A DNA stretch of 64,000 bases, taken from NCBI RefSeq assembly GCF_020193655.1, contig NZ_JADYVE010000010.1, positions 1 to 64,000 on the forward strand, in the 5' to 3' direction. This document shows positions 4,019-18,219 of the stretch, one piece after another (the first letter of the stretch is position 1; each line of letters begins with the position of its first letter). The notes below the pieces were generated by a model. That model made no database searches and was not told the origin of the DNA. It was given only the letters and a program-made list of their open reading frames with translations. The translations under genes were made by a program, and so were the position numbers. Source of the stretch: Ensifer sp. IC3342. GTDB lineage: Bacteria; Pseudomonadota; Alphaproteobacteria; Rhizobiales; Rhizobiaceae.

Positions 4019-4032
4019 CAATACGACCTAGG
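4019..4032 (+). promoter_or_regulatory. Putative activator site 1 upstream of exaF
   Basis: CAATACGACCTAGG is near-identical to each arm of the inverted repeat at 17427-17478 (GGAATACGACCTAGGT). The core CCTAGG is itself palindromic. It lies about 160 bp before the exaF start, a usual distance for an activator. Likely bound by the LuxR-type response regulator at 6035-6757, but that link is inference. Confidence 0.6.
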
Positions 4033-4089
4033 GACAATCGACATCGGGTCTGCCGCGGGTAACGCGCGGAGCCACGGGACCGCCGACAC

Positions 4090-4101
4090 TACGACCAAGG
4101 T
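4090..4101 (+). promoter_or_regulatory. Putative activator site 2 upstream of exaF
   Basis: TACGACCAAGGT differs from the consensus TACGACCTAGGT at one position. It is 68 bp downstream of the first site and about 90 bp before the exaF start. Two spaced copies upstream of one gene make a chance match less likely. Confidence 0.55.
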
Positions 4102-4192
4102 GCAATAGCCCGAAGCTTTGTCACAGGAGGATGATCGATGCCGCTAGACGGTTTGCGGCTGACGCGACCGATTGCGAGGGAAGGAGATCAAT

Positions 4193-5959
4193 ATGAACAG
4201 ACTGATGCTGACTGCCGTGACGGTCCTGTCACTGGCGGGACTGGCCCAGGCGGAGGTGACGGAGGAAGACCTCGCCAAGGACGCCACTACGGTCGGCGAT
4301 GTGCTGACGAACGGTATGGGGAGGGGCCTGCAGCGCTTCTCCCCACTTGAGACTCTCAACAAGAACAACGTCAAGAACCTGGTGCCCGCCTGGGCCTTCA
4401 GCCTCGGTGGCGAAAAACAGCGGGGGCAGGAAAGCCAGCCGATCGTCTACGGCGGGATCATGTATATCACGGCCTCCTACAGCCGCCTTTTCGCTATCGA
4501 TATCAAGACCGGTAAGGAGCTCTGGCAGTTCGACGCCCGGCTGCCGGAAGGCATCCTGCCCTGCTGCGACGTGGTGAACCGCGGTGCGGCGATCTATGGC
4601 GACAATATCTACTTCGGAACGCTTGACGCGCGCCTCGTCGCACTGAACCGCAAGACGGGCGATGTGGTCTGGAACAAGAAGATCGCCAATTACAAGGAGG
4701 GCTACAGCTACACCGCCGCGCCGCTGATCGTGAACGGCCTGGTAATCACCGGCAATTCCGGCGGCGAGTTCGGCGTCGTCGGCGAGGTGCAGGCGCGCGA
4801 CGCCAAGACCGGCGAGCTTGTCTGGACTCGGCCCGTCATAGAAGGGCACATGGGCACCTACAAGGGCAAGGAAAGCACCATGACCGGGACGTTGAACGCG
4901 ACCTGGCCCGGCGACCTGTGGAAGACCGGGGGCGGTGCCACCTGGCTCGGTGGTTCCTACGACGCCGATACCGACACGCTTGTCTTCGGCGCCGGCAACC
5001 CCGCCCCCTGGAACAGCCACCTGCGTGGCGCCGGCAGGCCGGTCGAAGGCAACAAGGGCGACAACCTTTATGCCGCGAGTCGACTCGGCATCAATCCCGA
5101 GAATGGCGAGATCAAGTGGCACTTCCAGACAACGCCCCGCGAAGGATGGGACTTCGACGGCGTCAACGAGGTCGTTCCCTTCATTTCCAAGGATGGCAAG
5201 AAGCGGTTCGCAACCGCCGACAGAAACGGCTTCTTCTATATTCTCGATCGCGAGGACGGGAAGTTCGTCGCTGCCTATCCTTTCGTCAAGAACATAACCT
5301 GGGCCAAGGGCATCGATAAGAACGGTCGTCCGATCTATGTGGAAGAAAACCGTCCGGGCGATCCTACCGCGGCGGCCGACGGCGGCAAGGGACAGCAGGT
5401 CTTCGCGGTACCGTCGTTCCTCGGTGGCAAGAACTGGATGCCGATGGCCTACAGCCAGAAGACCGAGCTTTTCTATGTGCCCTCGAACGAATGGGGCATG
5501 GACATCTGGAACGAGCCGATCTCCTATAAGAAGGGCGCAGCCTATCTCGGTGCCGGCTTCACCATCAAGCCGCTTTTCGAGGACTATATAGGCTCGCTGA
5601 AAGCGATCGATCCCAACAGCGGCGAGGTCAAGTGGGAATACAAGAACAGCGCTCCGCTCTGGGGCGGGGTGATGGCAACGGCGGGCGGGCTTGTTTTCGT
5701 CGGGACGCCCGAAGGTGAATTCAAGGCTCTCGACGATGAGACCGGCGAGGTTCTCTGGACGTTCCAGACCGGGTCCGGGGTCGTCGGCCAGCCCGTCACC
5801 TGGGAACAGGACGGAGAGCAATATGTGTCGGTCATTTCCGGCTGGGGCGGTGCCGTTCCGCTCTGGGGCGGCGAAGTTGCCAAGAAGGTCAATTACCTCA
5901 ACCAGGGTGGAATGGTATGGACCTTCCGTTTGCCAAAACAGTTGGCTTTGGCACAATAG
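4193..5959 (+). CDS. exaF: PQQ-dependent alcohol dehydrogenase, lanthanide type (ExaF/PedH-like)
   Basis: Periplasmic eight-bladed quinoprotein that oxidises short alcohols with PQQ and passes electrons to a soluble carrier. The 588 residues start with a signal peptide ending AGLAQA; ATG 4193 follows an AAGGAG site, better than the TTG at 4172. The vicinal disulfide pair C124-C125 (PCCDVVNRG) is present. The metal site reads GWDFDGVNE: catalytic D320 plus a second Asp at 322, the residue diagnostic of lanthanide-binding enzymes. Blocks such as [12 protein letters not shown] and [13 protein letters not shown] resemble ethanol dehydrogenase ExaA more than methanol dehydrogenase XoxF. No xoxG-like gene follows directly; pseudoazurin and PedF are candidate acceptors. 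Substrate range is inferred. Confidence 0.88.
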
Positions 5960-5966
5960 GCACAAG

Positions 5967-5991
5967 GGGCCGGGCTTTGGCAGCCCGGCCC
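5967..5991 (+). terminator. Hairpin after exaF
   Basis: GGGCCGGGCT and AGCCCGGCCC form a 10-bp GC-rich stem with a 5-nt loop, starting 8 bp after the exaF stop. No T-run follows, so it may act as a Rho-assisted terminator or an mRNA stabiliser rather than a classical intrinsic terminator. Confidence 0.6.
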
Positions 5992-6034
5992 TCGAACGCC
6001 GTGACTACGGCAGAATAATGCGGAGCGCTCGCAC

Positions 6035-6757
6035 ATGATCATCATCCGCAATTCCTTTCATGCACCGCGTCCGAACCTGGCGGTGCCACCTCTACTCAAA
6101 CCGGTCGAGTTGCGATCGGCGCTGATCGTTGACGATCACCCCTTGTTCTGCGATGCCCTAGCGATGACATTGACCGGTCTCGTCGGCATCGAGTCCATCG
6201 ATTCCGTGGGGACGCTGGATGCCGCCCTTACACGGCTGGACGGCGATACGCCGCCGGATGTCGTGGTGCTCGATCTCAATCTGCCGGACGTCAATGGACT
6301 TGACGGCGTCGTGCGGCTGAGACAGGCGGTTCCCGGGGTCCCGATCGTCGTTGTCTCTTCGCTGGACGAATTGAAGATCATCCGGGCCTTGCTCAAGGCG
6401 GGGATCAACGGCTTCGTGCCCAAGCATGCGGTTCGAGACGAGTTTCGTGCCGCCTTCGCGGCGATCGCTCGGGGCGAAATCTATGCCCCCCAGATGGCAT
6501 TGGAGCCGGGCAGCCCTTCCTTGTCCGACGAAGCAATTGCCCGGCTGGGGCTGCTGACGCGCCAACAGGCGAAGATCCTGCAACTCGTCTGCGCCGGCCT
6601 GATGAATAAGCAGATCGCCTATGAGCTTTCCATCGCCGAAACCACGGTGAAGGCGCATGTCACCGCGATCATGCGCAAACTCGGCGTCCAGACGCGGATG
6701 CAGGCAGTATTGTTCGCACAGGAGGCTCGTTTCACGGCACTGACGCCGGAGGAATGA
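6035..6757 (+). CDS. LuxR/NarL-type response regulator
   Basis: Two-component DNA-binding regulator, 240 residues. The receiver domain starts at ALIVDDHPLFCDAL, with the phosphoacceptor D80 in VVVLDLNLP and the conserved Lys in FVPKHAV. The C-terminal helix-turn-helix is typical of the NarL/LuxR group (LTRQQAKILQLVCAGLMNKQ, then ETTVKAHVTAIMRKLGV). It follows the dehydrogenase gene and precedes the FIST and hybrid kinase genes, the position of AgmR/ErbR-like activators in quinoprotein alcohol dehydrogenase clusters. Candidate activator of exaF and pedF through the TACGACCTAGGT motif. The ATG at 6035 leaves a short non-conserved lead of about 27 residues. Confidence 0.9.
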   Translation: MIIIRNSFHAPRPNLAVPPLLKPVELRSALIVDDHPLFCDALAMTLTGLVGIESIDSVGTLDAALTRLDGDTPPDVVVLDLNLPDVNGLDGVVRLRQAVPGVPIVVVSSLDELKIIRALLKAGINGFVPKHAVRDEFRAAFAAIARGEIYAPQMALEPGSPSLSDEAIARLGLLTRQQAKILQLVCAGLMNKQIAYELSIAETTVKAHVTAIMRKLGVQTRMQAVLFAQEARFTALTPEE

Positions 6758-6838
6758 CGCCCCCGGCCTGCCGCCCTCGAAAGTTCGCTGGATTCCGGAC
6801 CGATTACGGTTTTACTGTAGTTTCGGGAGGAAGAGGGA

Positions 6839-8017
6839 ATGAGGATATTCGCTGGGAGCGGCATCGCGTGCGAGGCGATCGTCCCGCGCGGCAGCGTTTC
6901 GACGCGCGATCCGAACGTCTTGGAGACATTGGCACGGCAACTGGGGCCGGGACCTTTTTCGCTGATCATGCTTTTCGTTTCGCCAGCGGCCGACCTGGAG
7001 CGTCTGCCCAGCGAAGCAGCGCGGGTCTTCGGTGACATCCCGATCGTCGGTTGCACCACCGCAGGCGAGATTTCCGACGCTGGCTACAACGAGGACTCCA
7101 TCGTCGCGATCGCCCTGCCCGCAGCGTACTTCCACGTCGATACGCTGACGATCCCCGACCTGATGCGGCTTGACCCGCCCGCTCTCGCCGCCGCCCTCGT
7201 CCGAGCGCGCACCGCGATGGCTGAGCGCCATCCCGAGCTTGCACATGAGTTCGCCATCCTCCTGGTGGATGGGCTTTCGCAGAAGGAAGACGAACTGACC
7301 TCGGCACTTGCGGCAGGCATGGGAGCAACGCCGATGCTCGGCGGTTCGGCCGGCGACGGGACGCGCTTCGCCCGGACCTTCGTGCTCGACGGCCACCGGC
7401 TGTCGGAGAACGCGGCGGTGCTGGCCTTGGTGCGCACGGAGTGTCCGGTCCGCGTCTTCAATTTCGATCACCTCGTGCCGACCGAAAGACGCATGGTGGT
7501 CACCGAGGCCGATCCCCGCCACCGCATCGTCCGCCAGATCAACGCGGAGCCCGCCGCACGAGAATATGCGCGCCTCGTCGGCATGGACCCCGAACAGCTC
7601 AGCACCTTTACGTTCGCCGCACATCCGGTCGCGGTCCGCATGGGAATGCGGCATCACGTGCGCGCCATCCGTCAGGTGATGGAAAACGGCGACCTTATTT
7701 TCTTCTCGGCGATCGACGAGGGCGTGGTGCTGACGATCACCGAGCCCGGTGACATGGTCGGCCAGCTCAACCGCGAGCTCACTCGCCTCTCTTTGCCCGA
7801 GCGCCCGACAGCGATCCTTGCCTTCGACTGCATCCTGCGCCGGTTGGAGGCTGAGGAAAAGCAGATCGTTGGCCGCGTCTCCGAGCTCTTGCGCCGACAC
7901 GGCGTAATCGGCTTCTGCACCTATGGCGAGCAGTTCGGTCCGATGCACGTGAACCAGACGATGACCGGCGTCGCCATCTATCCGCCAGGCACCGTGCTAC
8001 CCGAAAAGGCTCCGTAA
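6839..8017 (+). CDS. FIST domain sensory protein
   Basis: 392-residue soluble protein with the FIST_N and FIST_C sensory domains. Visible family features are the PIVGCTTAGEIS block near residue 70, the GGSAGDGTRFA strand near 170, and the C-terminal FCTYGEQFGPMHVNQT block. FIST domains are thought to bind small ligands, perhaps amino acids. There is no membrane segment or output domain, so it probably works with the kinase encoded next: its stop codon TAA shares one base with the kinase ATG (TAATG), which couples the two. ATG 6839 follows a GGGAGGAAGAGG site. Role in alcohol or aldehyde sensing is inferred from context. Confidence 0.88.
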   Translation: MRIFAGSGIACEAIVPRGSVSTRDPNVLETLARQLGPGPFSLIMLFVSPAADLERLPSEAARVFGDIPIVGCTTAGEISDAGYNEDSIVAIALPAAYFHVDTLTIPDLMRLDPPALAAALVRARTAMAERHPELAHEFAILLVDGLSQKEDELTSALAAGMGATPMLGGSAGDGTRFARTFVLDGHRLSENAAVLALVRTECPVRVFNFDHLVPTERRMVVTEADPRHRIVRQINAEPAAREYARLVGMDPEQLSTFTFAAHPVAVRMGMRHHVRAIRQVMENGDLIFFSAIDEGVVLTITEPGDMVGQLNRELTRLSLPERPTAILAFDCILRRLEAEEKQIVGRVSELLRRHGVIGFCTYGEQFGPMHVNQTMTGVAIYPPGTVLPEKAP

Positions 8018-10218
8018 TGGCCCGCATCTCTGACTGGCTGATTGATCCCGACGGCCATCCCGAGCGCAACACCGAGAAGCTTCTGACCATCGCCGAAGTG
8101 TTGATGCGTCAGGTCGAGCAGGCATCTGGCGAACGCGGAATCGCCTACGAGCAGTTCCAGCGCGCCGCTCAGCTGGAAGAGCGGGTGCGGCAACGCACGT
8201 CCGACCTCGAAGCGACGCTGAAGGTGCTCAACGATACGAACGCGCGGCTGGCCGAGGCCAATCATGCGACCGAGCGCGCCCGCCGCAACCTGGCCGATGC
8301 CATCGAGGCGGTGGAGGAAGGCTTCGCCCTCTTCGATGCCGGCGAAATCCTGGTGATGTACAACTCGAGATTTTGCTGCGATCTTCAGGACGTGCGAGCC
8401 GTGCTTCATCCCGGGCTGCCGTTTGCGGATTATATCGAAGCCTGTAGCCGGTCGCGCTTTCTGGCCCTGCCGGAGGGCGAGGCGCCGGCCGGCTGGATGG
8501 CAACGAGGATGCAGCGCCATCACGCGCGCAGCGTGTTCCAGGTGGCGCTTGCCGGTGACCGCTGGCTCCAGGTGAGCGAACAGCCCACGTCCGACGGCGG
8601 TACGGTCGTGCTCCAGACGGATGTCACCGAGATCATTCGCATGGAGCGAACCGAGCGCGGCAGGATGCTGGATGATCAGGCCCGGCTGATCCGCGCGACG
8701 CTGGAGCATATCAACCAGGGAATCTGCATCTTCGACGCGGCCGGCCGGTTGGTCGGCTGGAACGAGCGGCTCCGCCTGTTGCTCGATATTCCCGTAACGG
8801 TCCTGCGCACTGGCATCGGCTTCGACACGCTGCAGCGCTGGATCCGTCGCGACAGCGAACTGGTCAGCGCCATCGCTCCTTCGGCCCTTTCCGCCTGGGC
8901 AGCCCAAACGACAACGCGGCCCCCCTTGTTCCTGGAGATCCGCCGCACTTCGGGAATGATTCTCGTCGTGTTTGCAGAGGAGACGCCGGATCGAGGCTTC
9001 GTGATGTCGTTCAGCGACGTGACGCGCGAACGGCAAGCGATCCAGGCAATGCAGCGCGCCAACGCCTCTCTCGAGGCGCGGGTGGCGGCCCGCACGGAGG
9101 ACTTGCGCGCCGCGCTGGCCGATGCGGAACGGGCCAATTCCACGCGCACCCGTTTCGTCGCAGCCGCCAGCCACGATCTCTTGCAGCCGCTCTCCGCCGC
9201 AAAGCTCTTCGTAGCCTCGGCCCGCGACGAAACGCGTGACGATCACGCCGGCAGTACGCTCGACAAGGCACACAAGGCACTGGCAAGCGTCGAGGCGATC
9301 CTCGGAGCGCTGCTCGATATCTCGCGGCTGGATGAGGCGGTGGTCGAGATTTCGCCGGTGCGTCTCGCACCGCTGATCGCACAACTCACCGACGAATTTG
9401 CGCCGATGGCCGAGCGCAAGAGTCTGAAACTTGCCATCCTGCCCTGCACGCTGACGGTCTTTAGCGATCCGGCCTATCTCAGACGCATCCTGCAAAACCT
9501 CATCGGCAATGCGATCCGCTATACCCGCACCGGCCGCGTGCTCGTGGGTCCGCGGCGCATACCCGGCGGCGTACGCATCGAGGTGCATGATACCGGTCCC
9601 GGCATTCCGGCCGAGGAGCAGCAGGCGATCTTTCGTGAGTTCCATCGGCTCAATGCCACCGCTTCTGCTTCGGAGGGCTTGGGACTTGGCCTCGCCATCG
9701 TGGAGCGCGCCTGCACGCTGCTCAATCACCGACTTGCGCTGCGCTCGACGCCGGGGCGCGGCACATGCTTTGCGATCGAGCTGGAGCAGGCACCCTCGCG
9801 CAACTCTGCGAGTTACCCTGGCGCCGACGCTGCAGATGCCGACCCGTCGAACGACTGCGGCGACCGCATCGCGCTTCTCATCGAGAACGACGAGGAACTG
9901 CGGCACGCGATGAGCCTGCTCCTGGAGCGGCGCGGCATCACGGTCCTGGAAGCGGGAAGCGGCGAGGAAGCGCTGGAACTGGTCGATGAAATGGGCATCG
10001 TGCCCGATCTCTATCTGGTCGACCAGCAGCTCGGCGAGGGATTGACCGGCGTCGAGACCCTGACCGCGCTCAAGATACGCCACGGCGAGCGCCCGGCGAG
10101 GATCATCACCGCCGATCGATCACCGAGTTTGCGCGACGCCTGCGCCGCAGCCGAGATCGAGATGATCTACAAGCCCATCGACCTCGAGGTGCTCGAAGCC
10201 TTCGTTACCAGCGCATGA
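8017..10218 (+). CDS. Soluble hybrid histidine kinase with PAS domains and receiver
   Basis: 733-residue cytoplasmic sensor kinase with no membrane segment. In order: N-terminal coiled coil (about 35-95), two PAS-like domains (about 95-215 and 225-345, both with the EGFALFD/QGICIFD pattern of PAS-7), a second coiled coil, HisKA with H386 in ASHDLLQPL, HATPase with N box NLIGNAIRY, G1 DTGPGIP and G2 GLGLGLAIV, and a C-terminal receiver with D669 in LYLVDQQL. It overlaps the FIST gene by one base. Its probable output is the response regulator at 6035, with the receiver acting as a phosphate relay or brake. The stimulus is unknown. Confidence 0.92.
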   Translation: MARISDWLIDPDGHPERNTEKLLTIAEVLMRQVEQASGERGIAYEQFQRAAQLEERVRQRTSDLEATLKVLNDTNARLAEANHATERARRNLADAIEAVEEGFALFDAGEILVMYNSRFCCDLQDVRAVLHPGLPFADYIEACSRSRFLALPEGEAPAGWMATRMQRHHARSVFQVALAGDRWLQVSEQPTSDGGTVVLQTDVTEIIRMERTERGRMLDDQARLIRATLEHINQGICIFDAAGRLVGWNERLRLLLDIPVTVLRTGIGFDTLQRWIRRDSELVSAIAPSALSAWAAQTTTRPPLFLEIRRTSGMILVVFAEETPDRGFVMSFSDVTRERQAIQAMQRANASLEARVAARTEDLRAALADAERANSTRTRFVAAASHDLLQPLSAAKLFVASARDETRDDHAGSTLDKAHKALASVEAILGALLDISRLDEAVVEISPVRLAPLIAQLTDEFAPMAERKSLKLAILPCTLTVFSDPAYLRRILQNLIGNAIRYTRTGRVLVGPRRIPGGVRIEVHDTGPGIPAEEQQAIFREFHRLNATASASEGLGLGLAIVERACTLLNHRLALRSTPGRGTCFAIELEQAPSRNSASYPGADAADADPSNDCGDRIALLIENDEELRHAMSLLLERRGITVLEAGSGEEALELVDEMGIVPDLYLVDQQLGEGLTGVETLTALKIRHGERPARIITADRSPSLRDACAAAEIEMIYKPIDLEVLEAFVTSA

Positions 10219-10359
10219 CGAACGGCCGCCGTTCCTGACGTCGCTCCTCCCCGAGCTCCACCGGTACCGACCTCAGGCCTTCTCCGGGGCATGGCTCACC
10301 ATCTCCCCCTCAACTTATTGAAATCGAACACACTTATGCGGACGGTCGCTTCGACCGGC

Positions 10360-10373
10360 ACCAAGGTCGCATT
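10360..10373 (-). promoter_or_regulatory. Weak copy of the TACGACCTAGGT motif before the pseudoazurin gene
   Basis: ACCAAGGTCGCATT matches the reverse complement of the consensus (ACCTAGGTCGTATT) at 12 of 14 positions, 60 bp before the pseudoazurin start. The same A in place of T in the core is seen in exaF site 2. Weaker evidence than the other sites. Confidence 0.35.
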
Positions 10374-10432
10374 GTGTCGCCCTGCCCTTTCGATATTTGC
10401 TTTTGTCAGTTTCAAACCACAGGGAGAGATGA

Positions 10433-10867
10433 ATGCTGAGAAGAATGGGTATCATGGCCGCGACCGTGCTCGTTGCCGGCGGGGCCTTCGCCGAGGAACA
10501 CGAAGTAAAGATGTTGAACAAGGGCGTGAGCGGGGCGATGGTCTTCGACCCAGCCTTCGTGAAAGCCGCACCCGGCGACACGATCCGCTTTGTGCCGGTG
10601 GACAAAGGCCACAATGTCGAGTCGATAAGAGGGATGCTGCCCGACGGCGTGGACAAGTTCAAAAGCAAGGTTAACGAAGAATACGTGCTGACCGTCACTG
10701 TGCCGGGCCTCTACGGCGTCAAGTGCTCGCCGCACTTCTCCATGGGCATGGTGGCATTGATCCAGGTGGGCGACGTGCCGGCCAATGTCGAATTGGCAAA
10801 GGCCGCGAAGCTGCCGGCGAAGGCGGACGAACGGATGAAGGCGGCGCTTGCCGCATCTGCCCATTGA
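10433..10867 (+). CDS. Pseudoazurin (type I copper protein)
   Basis: Periplasmic blue copper electron carrier of 144 residues. A signal peptide ends at [10 protein letters not shown]. The copper ligands fit pseudoazurin spacing: H60 (DKGHNVES), C98, H101 and M106 in [10 protein letters not shown], with the His-Cys distance of 38 residues known from Alcaligenes pseudoazurin. The start ATG lies 4 nt after AGGGAGAG. Pseudoazurins often serve denitrification; none of those genes are near, and the position after exaF and its sensors suggests it carries electrons from the alcohol dehydrogenase, which is inference. Confidence 0.93.
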
Positions 10868-11239
10868 GCGAGCGACCTAAGAGGAGCCTACAGCGCCGCG
10901 GGTTTGATCAGACGCGCAGCGCTGGAGCCTTATCAATGGGTTCTGTTCGCGAAACTCTGGCGCTGCAGTGCCCAACACAAACTTCCCTTGGGTGGCGAGC
11001 GGAAGTTCGTCTTGCTCGTTGAAAGGAGTAGGTTGCGCCAGAAGCTGTCGCTGGACTAAAGCAGGCACCCTTGCGCGGAGCGCCGTTCGGCCGTCGGCCG
11101 GTAGTGAATGCGATGGACTTTGGGGCCCCGCTGATTTCAGCAGATGAGGTTTCGATACTCCCTGCTGTTGCTACTGCAGCGACCTTGGTACATCGATGAG
11201 ACGGACGGCACCGTAGCGGCCGAGCCGAACCCCCATGCG
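10868..11239. other. Intergenic gap after pseudoazurin
   Basis: 372 bp without a credible gene. It includes a degenerate copy (10888-10924) of the palindromic repeat found intact at 55924-55963, which may act as the terminator for the pseudoazurin gene. Confidence 0.5.
10888..10924. repeat. Degenerate intergenic palindrome (Sinorhizobium type)
   Basis: CTACAGCGCCGCG, then GATCAGACGCGCAGCGCTG, resembles the first half of the repeat at 55924-55963 (ACAGCGCCGCGCGT ... GACGCGC ... CGCTGT). The arms no longer pair perfectly. Confidence 0.45.
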
Positions 11240-11947
11240 TCAAGTAAGCGCTGCGAATCTTTCCACTAGTCTTGTCGGCCCTGACACGATCAGCAGATCG
11301 CCCGCCTCGACCATGGTCTCTGGCGTGGCGTAGGTAAAATCCATTTTCCTACGTTTGACACCGACGATAGTAACGCCATACTTGCTACGAAGACCGGATT
11401 CCCCCAGCGTTTTGCCGATGGCTTCTTCCGGCGCAGTCGTCTTGACGATGGCAAAGCCATCATCAAACTCTATGAAGTCGATCATCTTGCCAGTGACGAG
11501 GTGGGCGACACGCTCGCCCATGGCCGCTTCTGGATAGACGACATGATGCGCACCGGTACGCTCCAGAATGCGGCCGTGGTTAGGATTGACGGCCTTTGCC
11601 CAGATGTCGGGCACCCCGAGTTCCGAGAGCGCCAGCACTGTAAGCACGCTCGCTTCGATATCCGTCCCAATTCCGACGACGGCATGGGGGAAGTCCTGAA
11701 CGCCGAGGCGACGCAGAGCATCGGTGTTGCAACTGTCCGCCTCCACTACGTGGGTTAGACGAGTGGCCCAGCTCTGAACGAGTTCCGGGTTTTCATCGAT
11801 GGCCAGAACATCGTGACCCAGCCGAACCAGGGATTGGGCAACGGCGCTGCCGAAGCGGCCGAGACCGATGATGACGACGCCGTCGCCGCGGGGAATGCTG
11901 TTCTTAGCCAACGATTGGGCGCTCCTCTGGATATCGGAAGAGTACAT
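11240..11947 (-). CDS. ktrA: Potassium uptake regulatory subunit, KtrA/TrkA family
   Basis: Cytosolic RCK protein that gates a potassium channel subunit on nucleotide binding. With ATG 11947 it has 235 residues. The RCK-N Rossmann motif is GLGRFGSAVAQSL with an acidic end of strand 2 (LAIDENPE); the RCK-C domain ends in TYATPETMVEAGDLLIVSGP. A single RCK unit of this size fits KtrA rather than the double-length TrkA of enterics. It overlaps the 3' end of the channel gene by about 44 bp. An alternative TTG at 11977 would add ten basic residues. Confidence 0.88.
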   Translation of the reverse strand: MYSSDIQRSAQSLAKNSIPRGDGVVIIGLGRFGSAVAQSLVRLGHDVLAIDENPELVQSWATRLTHVVEADSCNTDALRRLGVQDFPHAVVGIGTDIEASVLTVLALSELGVPDIWAKAVNPNHGRILERTGAHHVVYPEAAMGERVAHLVTGKMIDFIEFDDGFAIVKTTAPEEAIGKTLGESGLRSKYGVTIVGVKRRKMDFTYATPETMVEAGDLLIVSGPTRLVERFAALT

Positions 11948-13235
11948 TGCGCTCTTGCAGCGCGAGCGCGCTTGCAATTGTGATCGTGCCGACGCGCCCG
12001 ATGAACATCAAGGCAATGATAGCGAGTTGGCCGGTGGGAGGCAGTGCTCCGGTAATGCCCGTGGACAAGCCAACGGTCCCAAATGCCGAAATCACTTCGA
12101 ACATAACATCTTCAAGCGGGAAGCTCGTGACGCTGAGGAGAATGAGTACGCCTCCTCCCACAGAGGCAACTGACAGCAATACGATTGCCAGTGCCTGGCG
12201 TTGAGCATGGGCGCCTATACGGCGTCGAAACGCGGTTGAATCGGGCTGACCTCGCACCTCGGCCCAGACGACAAATCCAAGCAGGAAAAATGTGGTGACC
12301 TTTATGCCACCAGCGGTACCGGCACTGCCGCCGCCAATAAACATCAAAGCATACGTCACTACCAGCGTCTCGATACGCATTTCTCCAATGTTGACGCTGT
12401 TGAAGCCGGCGGTTCTCGTCATGATCGAATGGGTCGCCCCGTTCAGCAGCTTTCCTGTCCATTCGTATGATCCCAGCGTTGCCGGGTTGCCCCACTCGTA
12501 GGCGGCCGTCGCAGAGAGTCCAGAGACGAACAGAAAAGCTGTTCCAAGGAGGGTAATCTTTGTGTGGATAGACCAGCGTGCCGGCTGCCGGGTCGCCTGT
12601 CGAAGTTCGTGAAGAACCGGAAAACCAAGGCCGCCGATGACGACGGCAGCCATGATCGGAACAAGGATAAGGGGGTCGAGGGCGAATCCGATAAGGCTGT
12701 CCGAATACGTGGAGAAGCCTGCATTGTTGAACGCGGAGACCGCATGAAACAGGCCATGCCACAACGCGTCGCTCCAAAGGTGATCATAGCCGTATCGCAA
12801 ACGCCAACTGAGCACTGCCGCGGTGAGCAGTTCGACTGTGACCGTTACGAAAAAGATGAGGCGAAGGACGGCAGCGATATCGCCCAGGGTGAGGCTCTTG
12901 GTCTCCGCCTGCGCGATGAGACGACTACTCAGTTTGAGTCTACGAGTAACGAGGAGACCCAGAAGCGTTGCGCCGGTCATGATTCCGAAGCCACCGACCT
13001 GGAACAACGCGAGGATCACGCTCTGGCCGAAGCCGGACCAGTAGGTGGGTGTGTCTTGGACGATAAGTCCGGTAACGCAGACTGCCGAGGTGGCGGTAAA
13101 CAACGCGGTAAGCAGTGGAGCTCCCCCCGGCTCCGTGCGAGAGATCGGCAGCATCAGCAATGCTGTGCCCGCAATAATGGCAATAAGAAACGCCAGCGGC
13201 ACAAGTCGCGCAGGGTGTTGCATGGATCGTTGCAA
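11904..13235 (-). CDS. ktrB: Potassium uptake channel subunit, KtrB/TrkH family
   Basis: Membrane subunit of a Ktr-type potassium transporter, 443 residues. All four pore loops of the superfamily can be seen: SAVCVTGL, SAFNNAGFST, TRTAGFNSV and SAFGTVGLST, with the central Gly of each filter conserved. Hydrophobic segments flank each loop. It is upstream of and overlaps the KtrA gene, so the two form one leftward operon. It sits between the pseudoazurin gene and the PQQ-associated ABC genes with no obvious functional link to alcohol oxidation, which suggests insertion into the island. Confidence 0.92.
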   Translation of the reverse strand: MQRSMQHPARLVPLAFLIAIIAGTALLMLPISRTEPGGAPLLTALFTATSAVCVTGLIVQDTPTYWSGFGQSVILALFQVGGFGIMTGATLLGLLVTRRLKLSSRLIAQAETKSLTLGDIAAVLRLIFFVTVTVELLTAAVLSWRLRYGYDHLWSDALWHGLFHAVSAFNNAGFSTYSDSLIGFALDPLILVPIMAAVVIGGLGFPVLHELRQATRQPARWSIHTKITLLGTAFLFVSGLSATAAYEWGNPATLGSYEWTGKLLNGATHSIMTRTAGFNSVNIGEMRIETLVVTYALMFIGGGSAGTAGGIKVTTFFLLGFVVWAEVRGQPDSTAFRRRIGAHAQRQALAIVLLSVASVGGGVLILLSVTSFPLEDVMFEVISAFGTVGLSTGITGALPPTGQLAIIALMFIGRVGTITIASALALQERNVLFRYPEERPIVG

Positions 13236-13577
13236 GTCCCACCTTTTCGTTGAACGCAGCTATCGCAAATCAACCGGCCGAAGGCAGCGGCATATTCGGA
13301 GAGGGGCAACCTTGGCGCAAGTCGCGGTTCACCGTCAATTCCGATGACGGTGGCAGATGCTGTGTATCTCTGCGGTGACACTGCGTGTCATTTGTAGTTC
13401 GTGCAATAGGCGGCAGACCCAAAGGAGGGGTTCCGGCCAGTCTGCGACAGCGGGGAACAAGTCCGCCTTAGGGGCAACTTGTGACGTAGCGCGAGCAAGC
13501 GCGGATGACAGCATTGGGTCGAAACGGGTATTTCGCAAATCGCCCCCGGGGGGAGTCCGGCACTCAGAGGCGCGGCG
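13236..13577. other. Gap between ktrB and ABC permease
   Basis: 342 bp upstream of ktrB and downstream of the leftward ABC operon. No gene is supported. A CCCCCGGGGGG palindromic run near 13548 could be part of a terminator, but no T-run accompanies it. Confidence 0.45.
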
Positions 13578-14480
13578 TCAGACTTTGCGGCCGGCCAGTC
13601 CACGCGCCGGGTCGTAGCCCCATATCGCCGCGGCGCCGAAGACCGCAAGCGCGGCGATCGTGACTGCAAGAGCGGACGGGTCGAGTTTCGTATAGAGGGC
13701 GAAGCGGATCAACTCGACCGCATGCGTGAACGGATTGACGGCGCAGATGTCGCGCAGCCGCGGCGACGCTTCCGCCATCTTCCACAGCGGATAGAGGGCG
13801 GACGAGAAAAAGAACACGGGGAAGATGACGAAGTTCATCACGCCAGCGAAGTTTTCCAACTGCCGGATGAACGAGGAAAGAACAAGCCCGAGCGCTCCCA
13901 CCATCAGCGCGCCGAGCATGATGGCAGGAAGAGCGGCAAGGTAGCCGCCTGGCGTGAAGCGGACGCCCCAGGCCGCTGCGACAGCGAGAAAGACATAGGC
14001 CTGCAGCACCGACATCAGGCTGCCGGCGACGAGCTTGCACGTCAGCAGCCACCAACGCGGCAGCGGGGCCGTCAGCAAAAGGCGCATCGAGCCCATCTCG
14101 CGGTCGTAGACAAGGCTCAGCGACGACTGCATGCCGTTGAACAGAAGGATCATGCCGACGAGGCCAGGGGTGATGTATATCTCGTAGGTGATATAGGTCT
14201 GGTAGGGCGGCGTGATCGAAAGGCCGAGCGCGGCGCGAAAACCGGCGGCGAAGACGATCAGCCATACGAGCGGGCGCACAAGCGCCGCGAGAAGCCGACC
14301 GCGCTGGCCGAGAAAGCGCAGCGCTTCCCGCTGCAAGATGGCGCTGAGGGCGACAATGGCGCAATAAAAAAAAGCGTGCGCAGTTCTCCCCTGCGCATCC
14401 CGATCGAGCCCGTCGGTATCGACGTTCAGAGTCTTTGGCGGGTTCGGCGCGAAAGCATCCCGATCTGGCACAGCGTTCAT
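13578..14480 (-). CDS. ABC-2 type permease, PQQ-alcohol dehydrogenase associated (PedC-like)
   Basis: Inner-membrane permease of 300 residues with about six hydrophobic helices of the ABC-2 type. The first cytoplasmic part ends in ILQREALRFLGQRGRLLAALV, and the family block NGMQSSLSLVYDREMGSMRLLL is present, followed by FPVFFFSSALYP before the last helices. The start overlaps the end of the ATPase gene in ATGA. Permeases of this kind (PedC in the Pseudomonas phenylethanol cluster) accompany quinoprotein alcohol dehydrogenases; the transported compound is not established. Confidence 0.85.
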   Translation of the reverse strand: MNAVPDRDAFAPNPPKTLNVDTDGLDRDAQGRTAHAFFYCAIVALSAILQREALRFLGQRGRLLAALVRPLVWLIVFAAGFRAALGLSITPPYQTYITYEIYITPGLVGMILLFNGMQSSLSLVYDREMGSMRLLLTAPLPRWWLLTCKLVAGSLMSVLQAYVFLAVAAAWGVRFTPGGYLAALPAIMLGALMVGALGLVLSSFIRQLENFAGVMNFVIFPVFFFSSALYPLWKMAEASPRLRDICAVNPFTHAVELIRFALYTKLDPSALAVTIAALAVFGAAAIWGYDPARGLAGRKV

Positions 14481-15193
14481 GACACAGCTCCGGTTAAGGC
14501 AATGAACCGCCCGCTGAGATCTGCACCGCCGATCTCAGCTGCTTCGCCGGCGGCAAGCACGCGGCCGCGGTGAAGAATGACGAGTTGGTCCTGCGGGCGG
14601 ATCTCATCGACGAGGTGAGTAGCCCAAAGCACGGTCAGGCCATCGTCCGCAGCAAGCCGGTGCACGTAGTCGACGATGGCGACGCGAGCGGCGGCATCGA
14701 GGCCGACCGTAGGCTCGTCGAGGAGCAGGACCGAAGGACAGTGCATCAGGGCACGGGCGATCTCCATCCGTCGCCGATGGCCGCCGTTGAGCGCTCCGGC
14801 CCTTTCGCCGGAACGGTCCGCCATTCCAAGCCGCTCAAGCACTGCCATCGCCCGCATCTCGGCTCGGCGGCCGAAAAGGCCGTGCAGGGCGGCGAAATAA
14901 AGAAGATTGCGCCGGACGGTGAGGTCGAGGTCGACGGTCGGCTGCTGGAAGACGATGCCGATGTGCCGAAGGGCGCCGTGCGGTTCGCGCGCGAGATCAT
15001 GACCGGCGATCGAAATGGCTCCGGCTCGCGCTGTGAAAAGCCGCGTCATCAGGCCGAACAGCGTCGACTTGCCGGCGCCGTTCGGCCCGAGGAGCGCGCA
15101 GAACTCACCGCGGCCGACGGAGAAGCTTACGTCTTCGAGTGCCCGCTTCGCTCCCCACATGTGGGTTATCGAGTCGATCACCAGTCCACTCAT
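14477..15193 (-). CDS. ABC transporter ATP-binding protein, PQQ-associated
   Basis: ATPase partner of the adjacent permease, 238 residues from ATG 15193 (MSGLVIDSITHMWG). Walker A is GPNGAGKST and Walker B is VLLLDEPTVGLD. The signature reads LNGGHRRRMEIARAL instead of LSGGQ, a change seen in some ABC-2 ATPases. The H-loop is ATHLVDE. Upstream in-frame codons to 15298 are not needed. Second-to-last gene of the leftward operon 17382-13578. Confidence 0.9.
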   Translation of the reverse strand: MSGLVIDSITHMWGAKRALEDVSFSVGRGEFCALLGPNGAGKSTLFGLMTRLFTARAGAISIAGHDLAREPHGALRHIGIVFQQPTVDLDLTVRRNLLYFAALHGLFGRRAEMRAMAVLERLGMADRSGERAGALNGGHRRRMEIARALMHCPSVLLLDEPTVGLDAAARVAIVDYVHRLAADDGLTVLWATHLVDEIRPQDQLVILHRGRVLAAGEAAEIGGADLSGRFIALTGAVS

Positions 15194-15224
15194 GTCCGCC
15201 CCCTGTCCGATGGTTTCCTGTCCG

Positions 15225-16193
15225 TCACGGGCGGGCAGCAGCCCCCCAGGGAAAGCGGCCGACCTTGATCGACTTGACCGGTTCGCGCGCTGCCACATCG
15301 ATCACCGTGACGTCGCCGGAAACGCCATTCGTGGTGAAAAGCTGTTTGTGATCGGGCGAGAAGGCCATGTGCCAGACGCGTCGGCCGACGAGAATGTATT
15401 CCTCGACCGCCAATGTCTTCATGTCGATCACGGCCACGTGGTTCGATGGGCCGAGCGCGACGAAAGCCGTTTTGCCGTCGGGCGCGAATTCAAAGCCGAC
15501 GGGCTGGATGAGGTCTCCATTGATCCCGGCGATGCCGAAAGCGATCTTGCCCTTCTCCGCCTGAGTTGCGACGTCGAAGACGGTGACCGTGCCACCGATC
15601 TCGGAGGATACCCAAAGCTCGCTTCCGTCCGCCGTGAACTCCGCATGGCGGGGCCGGCTATCGACCAGCGTATTGGCGAAAATCGTCATCGTCGCCGTAT
15701 CAATCCAATGCGCCATGTTTGTCGTCTCGGAAGTCGTTACGACGATCTTTCCGTCCGGCGAAACAGCCATGCCCTCGGGCTCGATGCCGACATTGATCTG
15801 GGCAACGACGTTGCGGGTATCGACGTCGACCACTGTCGTCACCGCGTCGTCTTCGTTTGCGATCCACAGGTGCTTGTCGTCGGGTGCAAGCACGAACTGC
15901 TCCGGATCCTCGCCCGAAGGAAGCTCATGAAGGATTTCGCCTGTCCGGGCGTCCATTACCTCGACCGCGTCGCTGTCGGATGCGCAGATATAGGCGCGCG
16001 AATGGTCGGAATTGAACGTGATGCCGCGTGGGCGTTCGCCCGTGGCGATGGTGCGCACGACTTCGAGCGTCGCGGTGTCTATCACCGAGATGTTGTCGTC
16101 CTTCTCGTTGGTGACCCAGATTTCGCCGGCTGCCGCGGCGACCGGACACGCGGCAAAGGGAAGTGCCGCCAGGAAGACAAAGATCCGTCTCAT
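15225..16193 (-). CDS. PQQ-dependent catabolism-associated beta-propeller protein (YVTN repeats)
   Basis: Periplasmic seven-bladed propeller of 322 residues with a signal peptide (FLAALPFAACPVAAAAG). Repeats follow the YVTN pattern: EIWVTNEKDDNISVIDTAT, HLWIANEDDAVTTVVDVDT, ELWVSSEIGGTVTVFDVAT, TAFVALGPSNHVAVIDMKT, QLFTTNGVSGDVTVIDVAA. No PQQ-binding motif is apparent. The family is known mainly from genome neighbourhoods of PQQ alcohol dehydrogenases, and its biochemical role is unknown. It lies 1 bp after the substrate-binding gene and before the ATPase gene. Confidence 0.85.
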   Translation of the reverse strand: MRRIFVFLAALPFAACPVAAAAGEIWVTNEKDDNISVIDTATLEVVRTIATGERPRGITFNSDHSRAYICASDSDAVEVMDARTGEILHELPSGEDPEQFVLAPDDKHLWIANEDDAVTTVVDVDTRNVVAQINVGIEPEGMAVSPDGKIVVTTSETTNMAHWIDTATMTIFANTLVDSRPRHAEFTADGSELWVSSEIGGTVTVFDVATQAEKGKIAFGIAGINGDLIQPVGFEFAPDGKTAFVALGPSNHVAVIDMKTLAVEEYILVGRRVWHMAFSPDHKQLFTTNGVSGDVTVIDVAAREPVKSIKVGRFPWGAAARP

Positions 16194-16194
16194 C

Positions 16195-17382
16195 TCATCC
16201 CCCGAACGCCTCGCAGGCGCTTTCCGCGCGGTCGAGGCCTAGTGTGTCCATGTTGTTTTCCTGGTGCAGATAACCATCGAGCGGCGCGAGCTCGACGAGC
16301 GCGCGGGCGTTTACCACCGGCATCGGCTGACGCAATTGCCCGTTCCAGTCGCGGTAGCTGAGTGGACGGCCCTTGAAGCCATCGAGGGCAAAGGCATCCG
16401 ACAGAATGTAATTCCGCAGCTTTATCGGATCGGCCGAGTTCATCCGTGTCACCGCTTCGCCGACCGTGCGCAGTGCCGTCCAGGCGGCGTAATCGCGCGG
16501 CCGCATCTCCCGCTTTGCCGCAGCTTCGAAGCGGTTCTGCAGCTGCACGGCCCCCCATTGTTCCAGAACGGGCGCCCATCCCTCGCCGCTAAGGCCGTCG
16601 GAGCCGGCAACCGGACGCGGCAGCCAGGTGTTGTCGGCAACATAGCGAGCGAAATCGTCGGCCTTGTCGGCAATCAGCAGCACGTCGTGGTTAGGAAGAT
16701 CCTGCGTGAATAGCGGCACCTCCTTGCTTGCTGCGCGCCTCAGGTCAGTGTCGAAGGTCCAGGCCTTTTCGGCGAGGATTTCGACGCCGAACTTCGCCGC
16801 CGCGGCCCGCAAGGTTGCTGCGAAGTCCTCATCCTCTGGTCTAGGGCCGACGATCAGGACCGTGCGCGTCCAGCGGCGTGCCCTCAACACCTGCATCAAC
16901 GCGTCGGCGCGCATCGCGTCCTCCGCGATCGTGTGCAGGAGATTGGCGCGGCACTCCCCGTCGCGCAGGCGGCGTTCGCCGGATGCGACATTGAAGAGCA
17001 GTGCGTCCCTCGCCTCGGGCAGGTCGGCGACGGTCAGGATGGCTTCGACGGGCGCATCGAGGAGAAGAACCGGCGAGGCAGCGAGCGCGGTTTTCGCCGC
17101 CGCCGCAAGATCGCCTCCCGGCTCAACGGAGACGACCTGCAGTCTGTAGCGATGGCCGAGGAAACTGCCGGTCGTCTCGCTATCGGCCAGAGCGACCCTC
17201 GCTCCTGCGATCCCCAGGTCCGCCGGGATCGGATCGAGATTGGAAAGCACCGGCGGCGCTTTCTGCTCCTGGCGCAGATAAGTCACGGCGACGCTGATTT
17301 CCGCCCGGGCCGGCCCGGCAGCGCCAAGAAGCGCGGCCAGGAGGCATGCGGATACTGTCCGTCTGATGCGGATCTCCGGCAT
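16195..17382 (-). CDS. Periplasmic substrate-binding protein of the PQQ-associated ABC system
   Basis: 395-residue secreted protein with a signal peptide (ACLLAALLGAAGPARAEI), related to branched-chain amino acid type periplasmic binding proteins: VLLLDAPVEAI, TVLIVGPRPEDEDFA, GSDGLSGEGWAPVLEQWGA. Members next to PQQ alcohol dehydrogenases form a separate family. The coupling to ABC-2 export-like permease and ATPase genes is odd, because import ABC systems normally use such binding proteins. First gene of the leftward operon; its promoter region is shared with pedF and holds the inverted repeat 17427-17478. Confidence 0.85.
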   Translation of the reverse strand: MPEIRIRRTVSACLLAALLGAAGPARAEISVAVTYLRQEQKAPPVLSNLDPIPADLGIAGARVALADSETTGSFLGHRYRLQVVSVEPGGDLAAAAKTALAASPVLLLDAPVEAILTVADLPEARDALLFNVASGERRLRDGECRANLLHTIAEDAMRADALMQVLRARRWTRTVLIVGPRPEDEDFAATLRAAAAKFGVEILAEKAWTFDTDLRRAASKEVPLFTQDLPNHDVLLIADKADDFARYVADNTWLPRPVAGSDGLSGEGWAPVLEQWGAVQLQNRFEAAAKREMRPRDYAAWTALRTVGEAVTRMNSADPIKLRNYILSDAFALDGFKGRPLSYRDWNGQLRQPMPVVNARALVELAPLDGYLHQENNMDTLGLDRAESACEAFGG

Positions 17383-17426
17383 TGGATGCTCCTCCCACCG
17401 AAGACGTTAAGGCGGGGCCGCGGAGG

Positions 17427-17478
17427 GCGGAATACGACCTAGGTACCATGCCGGGGCGCGACCTAGGTCGTATTCCGC
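17427..17478. promoter_or_regulatory. 18-bp inverted repeat between the ABC operon and pedF, putative regulator site
   Basis: GCGGAATACGACCTAGGT (17427-17444) is repeated perfectly in inverse at 17461-17478 with a 16-bp spacer. Each arm contains the small palindrome ACCTAGGT, with core centres 24 bp apart. It lies in the 150-bp divergent promoter region. The same motif is upstream of exaF, so a common activator such as the response regulator at 6035 is likely. Confidence 0.7.
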
Positions 17479-17532
17479 GGCACTCGCGACGGGCGCTACA
17501 AAAAACCTCAGCGAGATCGTGGAGGAGGAAAG

Positions 17533-18219
17533 ATGTCCAGGAACCGTATCCGAGCCGGGCTTGCGGGGCTCGCACTGTTGGCAACAGCAACGATGGTCGT
17601 CGCGCATGGCGACGTCGCGCCCCAGCCCGTCAACACCGACGCGTTGCCGGAAATAGGCGAGGAATGGCTGACGGAGAACCCCTATCGGGAGGCTAAGGTC
17701 GGGCACGATGTCTGGCTGAAGGCCGTCGAGATCGGCGCATCCGGCTTCAACCAGAACTGTGCCCGTTGCCACGGGCTCGGCGCCGTATCGGGAGGGCTTG
17801 CCCCCGACCTTCGCTTTCTGGAAGCAGAGGAGTACGGCGACGAATGGTTCATAGAGCGCTTCCGCCACGGTTACACCCAGGACGGCACGACCAAGATGCC
17901 GGCCTTCGGCGATATTCTCGGCCAGAAGGCTGCCTGGGCGATCCGCACCTATATCGAGACACGACCCGCAGATGGGGCGCTCGATGCTCACTCGGACCGG
18001 CTTCATGAAATGCGGAATGAGCTTGCTTCGTCCAAGGTCGAGGATCCCAAGGCGTTGAAGAGCGAACTCGAAAAGATCGCTGCCGAGGTAGAAACGGCTT
18101 CCGGCGCACCGGTTGCCGACAGCGTCGCCTACGAGGCGGCCCGGATTCTCGGCGAGACACCGGAAAGCTGGAAGAAAGCGAGCGAAGTCCTGACCGTCGG
18201 GCTTTCGGCGACGGAGTGA
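17533..18219 (+). CDS. pedF: Cytochrome c-550 PedF
   Basis: Periplasmic c-type cytochrome of 228 residues that takes electrons from quinoprotein alcohol dehydrogenases. A signal peptide ends near MVVAHGDV. The single heme site is CARCHG (C76, C79, H80) and the likely axial ligand is M122 in TKMPAFGD. A long C-terminal helical tail (about 160-228, EKIAAEVETASGAPVADSVAYEAA) is characteristic of this family. GTGGAGGAGG precedes the ATG. It is followed after 3 bp by the binding-protein gene. Confidence 0.88.
   Translation: MSRNRIRAGLAGLALLATATMVVAHGDVAPQPVNTDALPEIGEEWLTENPYREAKVGHDVWLKAVEIGASGFNQNCARCHGLGAVSGGLAPDLRFLEAEEYGDEWFIERFRHGYTQDGTTKMPAFGDILGQKAAWAIRTYIETRPADGALDAHSDRLHEMRNELASSKVEDPKALKSELEKIAAEVETASGAPVADSVAYEAARILGETPESWKKASEVLTVGLSATE

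Follow-up and report, generated by a model that had tools for sequence, protein, structure and literature searches.

What reads the palindromic sequence that recurs before genes of PQQ-dependent alcohol oxidation in this Ensifer locus, and does it mark a regulon? An earlier note on the window (the whole 64-kb stretch of DNA analysed here) had described a perfect 18-bp inverted repeat between the PQQ-associated ABC operon and pedF, with related copies before exaF and the pseudoazurin gene, and had proposed that these mark a PQQ-alcohol-oxidation regulon. We find that the motif does mark such a set of genes, which here comprises exaF, pedF, the PQQ-ABC operon and pseudoazurin. It is quite probably the operator of the response regulator encoded at 6035-6757, a dimer of which would bind the 16-bp palindrome and activate the genes of PQQ-alcohol oxidation.

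Palindromic boxes in the window

The two arms of the inverted repeat are exact reverse complements, as had been claimed, but they are not a single element: two 16-bp palindromic boxes lie there 24 bp apart, and their outer halves make up the repeat (Table 1). With up to two mismatches allowed, TACGACCTAGGT is found at seven places in the window compared to 1.33 expected, and at five or fewer in each of 100 shuffles. The places at 4022 and 4090 (one mismatch each) agree with the report of two copies upstream of exaF, and that at 10360 on the minus strand (two mismatches) with the report of a weaker copy before pseudoazurin. The others are 17433 (no mismatch), 17461 on the minus strand (no mismatch), 17457 (two mismatches), which is the box of 17461 in the opposite-strand reading, and 35620 (two mismatches). 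Given this last place, and weaker ones at 11306, 18027, 40121 and 55192, the assertion that the 64 kb contain no other close copies was slightly overstated. The core ACCTAGGT occurs at two places only in the 64 kb, and exact ACGACCTAGGT at two places in the 7.42-Mb genome, all within the inverted repeat. The core is palindromic as described, but the true unit is the 16-bp palindrome with an AT-type centre and not a 12-mer, and ACCTAGGT is one version of ACCwwGGT rather than a fixed sequence.

Scanning the window with a later-derived matrix gave sites of at least 14 bits only at 4090, 10356, 17433 and 17457 (200 permuted matrices gave a mean of 0.405 and a maximum of six), and every one of these four strongest sites is located in a promoter of the PQQ-alcohol cluster. 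The 4090 box, centred about 95 bp before exaF, contains TACGACCAAGGT and CAAT, which are invariant in all nine Rhizobiaceae exaF upstream regions. The copy at 4022 also stands, but as a conserved half-box and not as a full site, TACGACCTA being invariant in 9/9 of these upstream regions while the second half of the site is not conserved. In this genome the exaF boxes are about 430-500 bp from pqqA. The 10356 box is centred about 69 bp before pseudoazurin. For the double box between pedF and the ABC operon, the spacing is 24 in eight of nine Rhizobiaceae loci (the window locus counted) and 25 in the ninth, and relatives keep this spacing while losing the perfect symmetry. No match to the sigma-70 consensus is present at 17380-17540.

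The regulator is encoded within the PQQ-alcohol cluster beside a NosP-like protein and a NahK-like kinase, both of which score below curated cut-offs (379.1 bits against 450 for NosP model NF041558, and 375.9 bits against 1500 for NF041831, the top match of the kinase). The regulator itself scores 158.8 bits with the ErdR model NF041830, below the cut-off of 390, a match that indicates kinship only. The ABC operon encodes a permease, an ATPase, a YVTN propeller and a substrate-binding protein.

Table 1. Coordinates of the boxes and genes of the locus within the window
Feature	Position	Strand	Basis
Half-box TACGACCTA (4022-4030), conserved, far upstream of exaF	4022..4037	+	12.3 bits
Full box TACGACCAAGGTGCAA	4090..4105	+	18.4 bits
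exaF-type PQQ methanol/ethanol dehydrogenase	4193..5959	+	TIGR03075, 773.8 bits
NarL/LuxR-type response regulator, ErdR/AgmR family, clade A, proposed binder	6035..6757	+	Response_reg and GerE
NosP-like FIST protein	6839..8017	+	FIST N and C domains
NahK/ErcS'-like hybrid histidine kinase (PAS, HisKA, HATPase, REC)	8017..10218	+	Domain matches
Box CGGCACCAAGGTCGCA	10356..10371	+	15.8 bits
Pseudoazurin	10433..10867	+	TIGR02375, 175.3 bits
PQQ-associated ABC operon	13578..17382	-	TIGR03861, TIGR03864, TIGR03866, TIGR03863, each above cut-off
Left arm, perfect 18-bp inverted repeat	17427..17444	+	Read from sequence
Box 1, divergent pedF/ABC promoter region	17433..17448	+	18.2 bits
Box 2, divergent pedF/ABC promoter region, 24 bp from box 1	17457..17472	+	20.9 bits
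Right arm, perfect 18-bp inverted repeat	17461..17478	-	Read from sequence
pedF cytochrome c-550	17533..18219	+	TIGR04494, 194.9 bits (cut-off 122)

Frequency and conservation of the box

Applied de novo to 140 upstream regions, palindromic EM returned ATncGACCatGGTCgnAT with a log-likelihood of 779 compared to 33 in shuffled sequence (10 starts for the shuffled runs, 25 for the real one), set A including the plasmid loci L065, L132 and L133, which have no regulator in the stretch; the de novo consensus is ATncGACCwwGGTCgnAT. Genome-wide counts of the bare 11-mer are uninformative: with at most one mismatch it has 65 matches, and its reversed pattern has 117. The 16-bp palindrome, allowed two mismatches or fewer, shows a mild excess (87 sites against 52). 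Since the frequency of the bare motif is unremarkable, the case rests on position and conservation. The other 15/16 palindromes of the genome, C27:1155861 and C104:113144, were considered as regulon sites but lie inside long open frames, and we therefore claim no regulon member beyond the cluster.

In 19 annotated plasmid loci, TDCGACCWWGGTCGHA at 14 or more of 16 positions has 28 matches, 26 of which are in cluster-gene promoters (15.3 of 558 kb, by gene lists completed after these matches were known), two inside genes and none before other genes. Sixty permuted palindromes gave a mean of 0.23 cluster-promoter matches, and the best of them, with eight, nearly reproduces the real core. At 13/16, 51 cluster matches are accompanied by 44 genic ones, six others and three before other genes. 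Among the earlier loci with a clade-A regulator, the box precedes the genes for PedF (19/21), ExaF (17/20), SBP (17/18) and the NosR-like protein (14/15), the first pattern having been shaped after inspection of L031-L041 and L061-L066. It precedes none of 68 unrelated genes in 23 earlier loci, and two of 22 in three other loci, both in one shared region of L065. The corrected count is 91 of 124 cluster genes, with a mean of 0.41 for permuted palindromes (best 45, next best five). Start codons obtained with tblastn are estimates, and distances at L117, L173, L175, L182 and L203, where genes are cut by the locus end, are spurious.

A matrix fixed beforehand was then applied to 76 further loci (the best 80 of 567 relatives, minus four on contigs taken as already used because their lengths were equal), several of which are closely related to one another or to earlier loci. 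The box is found before 99 of 128 cluster genes and in 76 of 105 separate regions (permuted matrices: mean 0.32, maximum four), gene counts exceeding region counts because divergent genes share regions. Of the 66 further loci that have any cluster gene, 48 carry the box and 18 have no box of 13 bits. Pseudoazurin genes carry it in 7/7 cases in these loci and in 3/5 in the earlier ones, and in relatives it also precedes a NosR-like gene followed by ApbE, an ABC permease gene, pqqA and a CoxG-like gene. Moreover, the columns of the box rank with the most conserved promoter blocks of the Rhizobiaceae alignment, and the box is conserved from Rhizobiaceae to Rhodobacterales. The earlier note had made the motif depend on conservation before orthologous exaF and pedF genes, and the outcome favours the motif.

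Regulator clades and box types

The CGACC-type box tracks the NarL-type response regulator whose gene stands with those for NosP and NahK, and loci with an AgmR/CrbR-like regulator have a sister box, STACC-ww-GGTAS. Box type and regulator clade agree in all 51 loci that give a call among 64 scored, using sites chosen with matrices trained on all loci, some of which are near-copies, and counting calls near the limit of 3 at L126, L142, L173, L174, L181, L197 and L199. Clade-A loci without a clear call are L140, L141, L194, L200 and L203. The agreement also held in six of seven cases for which a prediction had been written down in advance. The window locus is of the CGACC type with a score difference of 13.0, and not of the STACC-ww-GGTAS type of AgmR-type loci; its regulator and the AgmR-like regulators of Pseudomonas-type ped clusters (identified in the tree by gene order) are on opposite sides of a 100/100 branch. 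Because box type tracks regulator clade, the LuxR-type regulator at 6035-6757, which had been put forward as the best candidate binder, keeps that place.

The regulator is usually linked to its targets, so this co-distribution is partly linkage. The pedF gene of L143 has a CGACC box although the regulator of that locus belongs to the other clade, G095 (93% complete, 180 contigs) has a perfect 16/16 box with a CrbR orthologue as the sole regulator found, and a search of box-bearing plasmids of Gemmobacter, Phaeobacter and Thioclava found no clade-A regulator on them. The contig of the window has a second response regulator-NosP-NahK set (C11, about 140.6-144.7 kb), which might have been the partner of the boxes, but its surrounding 20 kb are boxless at up to three mismatches.

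Residue 210 is threonine in 29/29 clade-A regulators and serine in 34/35 others (paralogues and outliers left out); the CrbR orthologue of this genome has serine. The position aligns with a lysine of NarL, counted as Lys192; NarL Lys188, Val189 and Lys192 contact bases. Given a single split in the tree, other residue differences, and CGACC-like CrbR sites even though the orthologue has serine, we regard Thr210 as a correlate of the box difference and not as its cause.

Known sites, alternative binders and meaning

The Pseudomonas-type ped gene order differs from the window in having regulators of the other clade and promoters with STACC-ww-GGTAS. A DAP-seq survey of P. aeruginosa regulators reportedly exists. 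The Pseudomonas AgmR/PedR1/ErbR ped/exa system resembles this locus in its PQQ dehydrogenase and ABC genes and in the NosP homologue and NahK/PedS1 that adjoin the regulator, and AgmR activates the ped core genes and the pqq operon (review PMC12997753). In P. aeruginosa, ErbR acts through EraSR on exaA (PMC4686015). A word search of the text of four AgmR/ErbR/PedR papers (PMC12997753, PMC13390443, PMC4686015, PMC6115532), together with literature searches, a partial cover of the literature, returned no AgmR binding site. RpuR of Sinorhizobium fredii NGR234 is a LuxR-type response regulator from the same genus, but its site before mctP is described as an imperfect direct repeat, unlike the palindrome of the window (PMC9100948). 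The EmaR motif of Acinetobacter baumannii ethanol metabolism, printed as CTTAT...ATxAT, is likewise a predicted response-regulator site for ethanol genes, with a sequence unlike the window box (PMC9603970).

The claim that no such site had been published went too far. The ACTU motif of CrbR/ErdR (Sepulveda and Lupas 2017, PMC5715377) is the same kind of site: an imperfect inverted repeat with TAC(G/T)AC(C/T) half-sites and an AT-type centre, placed between -52 and -36 relative to a sigma-70 start and required for CrbR activation. Like the window box, it lies upstream of metabolic genes, and its reader is a LuxR-type response regulator from the wider family to which the proposed reader of the window box also belongs. 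ACTU, however, is found at the acetate genes acs and actP in Gammaproteobacteria, whereas the window box stands before PQQ-alcohol genes, and the window regulator is in a clade apart from this genome's CrbR (100/100). The box matrix gives all 23 ACTU sites of Table 4 in that paper, most of which are motif-search predictions, between 9.3 and 17.9 bits, random 17-mers reaching 6.2 at the 99.9th percentile. Given the resemblance to this proven motif, the site is not wholly unpublished; the PQQ-alcohol regulon, the box variant and the link to the NosP-NahK operon are new. The C-terminus of this genome's CrbS-like kinase is of the NahK/ErcS type.

One possible reading, which overlaps with our own and which we hold to be somewhat unlikely, has two binders: the local regulator is the main activator, and CrbR has a modulating role, at the mixed exaF boxes if not more widely. 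With the sister matrix the 4090 and 17433 boxes still score 15.7 and 15.8, and for exaF in L113 and L114 the boxes reach 18.3 and 18.6 with the two matrices. These dual high scores, together with the fit of literature CrbR sites to the CGACC box, suggest that the CrbR of this genome could bind here, but matrix scores are not binding, and most columns are common to both matrices. It is improbable that CrbR, the acetate-type ErdR orthologue, is the main reader, coupling alcohol oxidation to its product acetate and leaving the local regulator with some other target. In favour of this, CrbS/CrbR-like genes are present at C27 (about 957-962 kb), 20 of the 23 published sites score better on the box matrix than on the sister matrix, the exaF boxes combine both half-site types, and G095 carries the box with CrbR alone found. 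CrbR orthologues also occur, however, in G021, G123 and G056, where promoters have the other box type, so that box type follows the other regulator and not CrbR. Moreover, upstream of the two acs-like genes above the family cut-off no box is found, nothing exceeding 11/16.

That the inverted repeat is a hairpin, either a terminator or an RNA element, and no protein-binding site is very unlikely: the repeat could fold into a perfect stem of 18 bp with a loop of 16 bases, but it lies between divergent genes, a scan covering loops of 3-8 found no terminator-like site in its region, relatives lose the perfect symmetry while keeping box spacing and sequence, and single copies occur at other promoters. 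Chance, or common promoter ancestry without function, is negligible even though many compared loci are closely related and the genome-wide frequency is not unusual, as the box is kept from Rhizobiaceae to Rhodobacterales, much flanking promoter sequence is not kept within Rhizobiaceae, and unrelated genes in the 23 earlier loci are without it.

We thus favour the regulator at 6035-6757, a dimer of which would bind TnCGACC-ww-GGTCGnA, in most cases 45-110 bp upstream of the start codon of a gene for PQQ-alcohol oxidation. By analogy with CrbR at ACTU, it would most likely activate transcription from a position immediately upstream of the -35 region. Of the boxes, one, together with the extra half-box further upstream, would serve exaF and another pseudoazurin, and the divergent pedF and ABC operons would share the pair spaced by 24 bp. 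Because the regulator gene lies downstream of exaF with those for NosP and the NahK-type hybrid kinase, the exaF box probably drives its own regulator too, via readthrough from exaF. The NahK-like kinase would phosphorylate the regulator, and NosP may provide an input whose signal, NO or haem, we guess from family names.

More tentatively, the ErdR/AgmR family may have split into two clades that govern the same genes of alcohol oxidation in the dialects CGACC-ww-GGTCG and STACC-ww-GGTAS, CrbR having kept an older, looser site. In rhizobia and rhodobacters the CGACC clade would then be joined with NosP and NahK in a single operon, and NO or haem status may gate PQQ-dependent (possibly lanthanide-dependent) alcohol oxidation, with a regulon including pseudoazurin, the NosR-like gene and a molybdenum hydroxylase operon. 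Scoring all the Table 4 CrbR sites slightly lowered our confidence in the local regulator as binder, made this two-dialect reading a little more doubtful and raised the standing of the two-binder alternative.

For rhizobia and rhodobacters, the genes of PQQ-alcohol oxidation gain a defined, predicted operator and a candidate regulator, and members of the regulon become readable from sequence. The sister box is a candidate site for Pseudomonas AgmR, and the CGACC and STACC boxes form a specificity pair. In addition, the link to the NosP-NahK operon makes the input of NO or haem into alcohol oxidation a testable idea.

Palindromic boxes in the window

Every motif site listed in the earlier note is found in the window, and the motif proposed there stands, although its 12-mer is not the unit but one palindrome half, the centre and the start of the second half. 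Upstream regions, 140 in all, were taken from the window, from 16 of the 20 plasmid loci with annotation and from those tblastn-annotated loci whose regulator is like the window's, and were searched de novo for a single palindromic motif. The result was ATncGACCatGGTCgnAT (mixing weight 0.8). Its log-likelihood was 779, against 33 for shuffled sequence, and nothing comparable emerged from the shuffles.

Features of the window locus
Feature	Position	Strand	Remark
pqqB, pqqE	left side of locus	minus	
pqqA-like peptide	about 3499-3594		readable frame; ~430-500 bp from exaF boxes
exaF-type PQQ dehydrogenase	4193-5959		
NarL-type response regulator	6035-6757		
NosP-like FIST protein	6839-8017		
NahK-like hybrid kinase	8017-10218		
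pseudoazurin	10433-10867		
PQQ-associated ABC operon	13578-17382	minus	
pedF	17533-18219		

The perfect 18-bp inverted repeat described between pedF and the ABC operon is also present, as two boxes (17433 and 17457) rather than a single element; the stretch resembles one long inverted repeat because the better halves of the two boxes face outwards. Across nine Rhizobiaceae loci the spacing is kept, at 24 bp in eight, including the window, and 25 bp in the ninth, while the relatives lack the perfect symmetry. Among the remaining 17 loci of this comparison, ten have just one site, six have a pair separated by 28-32 bp, and L124 has a pair separated by 17 bp. Upstream of exaF, the half-box TACGACCTA (window 4022) and the full box TACGACCAAGGT-CAAT (window 4090) are invariant in nine of nine loci, as are a GATGATC block and stretches by the start codon. 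Box centres lie ~95 bp from the start codon of exaF, ~69 bp from that of pseudoazurin, ~69 and 93 bp from that of pedF, and ~59 and 83 bp from that of the ABC operon.

Downstream of the exaF box, a 21-codon open frame (4131-4196, ATG at 4131) has a good ribosome-binding sequence (AGGAGG) and a stop that overlaps the exaF start codon; the GATGATC block, unchanged in nine Rhizobiaceae, lies where the frame begins. This frame is possibly a coupled leader peptide.

Enrichment before cluster genes

Motif counts across the window's own genome (7.42 Mb, 115 contigs) are weak evidence. Across the 19 annotated plasmid loci that remain when Shinella L063 is excluded, TDCGACCWWGGTCGHA at 14/16 or better gives 28 matches, 26 in cluster promoters and 2 intragenic, with none before non-cluster genes; at 13/16 there are 51 in cluster promoters, 44 intragenic, 3 before other genes and 6 elsewhere. 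The conservation before orthologous exaF and pedF genes that the earlier note had proposed as a check is found when genes are counted with the box matrix at a cut-off of 13 bits: in 23 loci with a window-like regulator, the box precedes ExaF in 17/20 and PedF in 19/21 cases, together with the ABC binding protein (17/18), the adjoining ABC permease (9/10), NosR-like (14/15), pqqA (5/7), CoxG-like (CODHG, 3/3), pseudoazurin (3/5), aldehyde dehydrogenase (1/2) and the regulator gene itself (3/23), and none of 68 unrelated genes. Five loci without such a regulator in the stretch have it before PedF (5/5), the ABC binding protein (5/5), ExaF (2/3) and 2/22 unrelated genes, both in one shared region of L065. 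The Sphingobium, two Azospirillum and Variovorax loci have a box before PedF in one of four cases (L143), and none at other cluster genes or at 49 unrelated genes.

With the matrix set beforehand, 76 previously unused loci from genome_contigs (the best 80 of 567 relatives minus 4 repeats) yielded a box at 99/128 genes, or 76/105 separate regions, and permuted matrices a mean of 0.32 genes (maximum 4). The box precedes ExaF (17/21), PedF (18/24), the ABC binding protein (22/26), ABC permease (5/8), NosR-like (6/6), pqqA (2/5), pseudoazurin (7/7), CODHG (22/31), aldehyde dehydrogenase (1/1) and the regulator gene itself (10/76), and neither SoxYZ (0/4) nor rhodanese (0/6). Boxes occur in 48 of the 66 further loci holding any cluster gene, and the sister matrix outscored the box matrix at 14/128 genes. 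Boxed CODHG genes occur in many Rhodobacterales (L250, L252, L257, L260, L271 and others), often with no recognised exaF in the fetched stretch; in three annotated loci (L130, L131, L136) CODHG heads a molybdenum hydroxylase operon.

Box type and regulator clade

The CGACC box is usual where the gene of a window-like regulator stands in line with those of NosP and NahK. Where the regulator is closer to CrbR, as in the Pseudomonas ped-cluster gene order, target genes of the same kinds are often preceded by TnSTACCwwGGTASnA, a sister palindrome recovered de novo from 89 regions (mixing weight 0.72). In many of loci L164-L183 this sister box precedes aldehyde dehydrogenase genes and genes of ped/exa type, as it does and in L121, L125, L126, L186, L189, L190 and L193. 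It may be the AgmR site, for which the part of the AgmR literature searched gave no binding site.

The two regulator clades split at 100/100 support, and residue 210 (Thr versus Ser) tracks the split as a correlate only. When box type was called with matrices lacking each locus's own sites, 13 of the 64 loci remained uncalled, and the other 51 (24 + 27) agreed without exception with the regulator clade. The clade was also predicted in advance for seven genomes with the regulator outside the fetched stretch, a NosP gene near the locus being already known in G402 and G652. In each of the five genomes predicted to hold the other clade, the top two regulators recovered belong to it, weaker matches (26-38% identical) being left unplaced. 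For the window's clade, G402 has such a regulator and G095 is a miss, only a CrbR orthologue being found; in G388, an eighth genome without a prediction, no regulator was found. In the Variovorax boronicumulans plasmid (L145), neither box type occurs in the promoters of the alcohol-oxidation cluster, and the sole 14/16 match lies inside pqqC/pqqD. That cluster, similar to the window's, adjoins a sigma-54-dependent Fis-type regulator instead.

Relation to CrbR and predicted regulation

Published work places the ACTU motif of CrbR at -52 to -36 and finds it necessary for activation (PMC5715377). All 23 sites in Table 4 of that paper score 9.3-17.9 bits on the box matrix, 20 of them above their sister-matrix score, which places the box in this known operator family; the two are alike in kind of site, but targets and regulator clade differ. 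CrbR, judged by its orthologue in the window's genome, sits across the regulator tree from the window's clade, and because it reads CGACC-like halves, the clade rule holds for alcohol-cluster regulators only and not for the whole family. To judge from sequence, CrbR may itself bind mixed boxes such as 4090. Upstream of two acs-like genes checked in the window's genome (L184, L185) there is no box or clear ACTU-like site. That genome encodes a CrbS/CrbR-like pair on contig C27 (about 957-962 kb, L128).

By analogy with CrbR, the response regulator of the window would bind the box as a dimer directly upstream of the promoter and activate transcription. Its closest relatives among the matches listed, at 85-90% identity, are from Sinorhizobium fredii and S. 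saheli. The exaF box would also drive the regulator gene by readthrough, and hence positive feedback; this is likely, since the gene starts 75 bp past the exaF end and rarely has its own box, and since in L137, where exaF is not adjacent, it does have one. NosP and NahK owe their names to NO signalling in Pseudomonas; the NosP-like and NahK-like proteins of the window score below curated cut-offs. A second response regulator-NosP-NahK set (L127) lies outside the window on the same contig (C11, about 140.6-144.7 kb); its regulator is a long side branch of the window's clade, and no box copy occurs in the 20 kb around it.

Taken together, the box is real, conserved, functional-looking and, on comparative grounds, well assigned to the regulator whose binding is predicted. 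Its regulon may reach beyond alcohol oxidation, and what is new is a variant of an already known operator type, not a new operator type.
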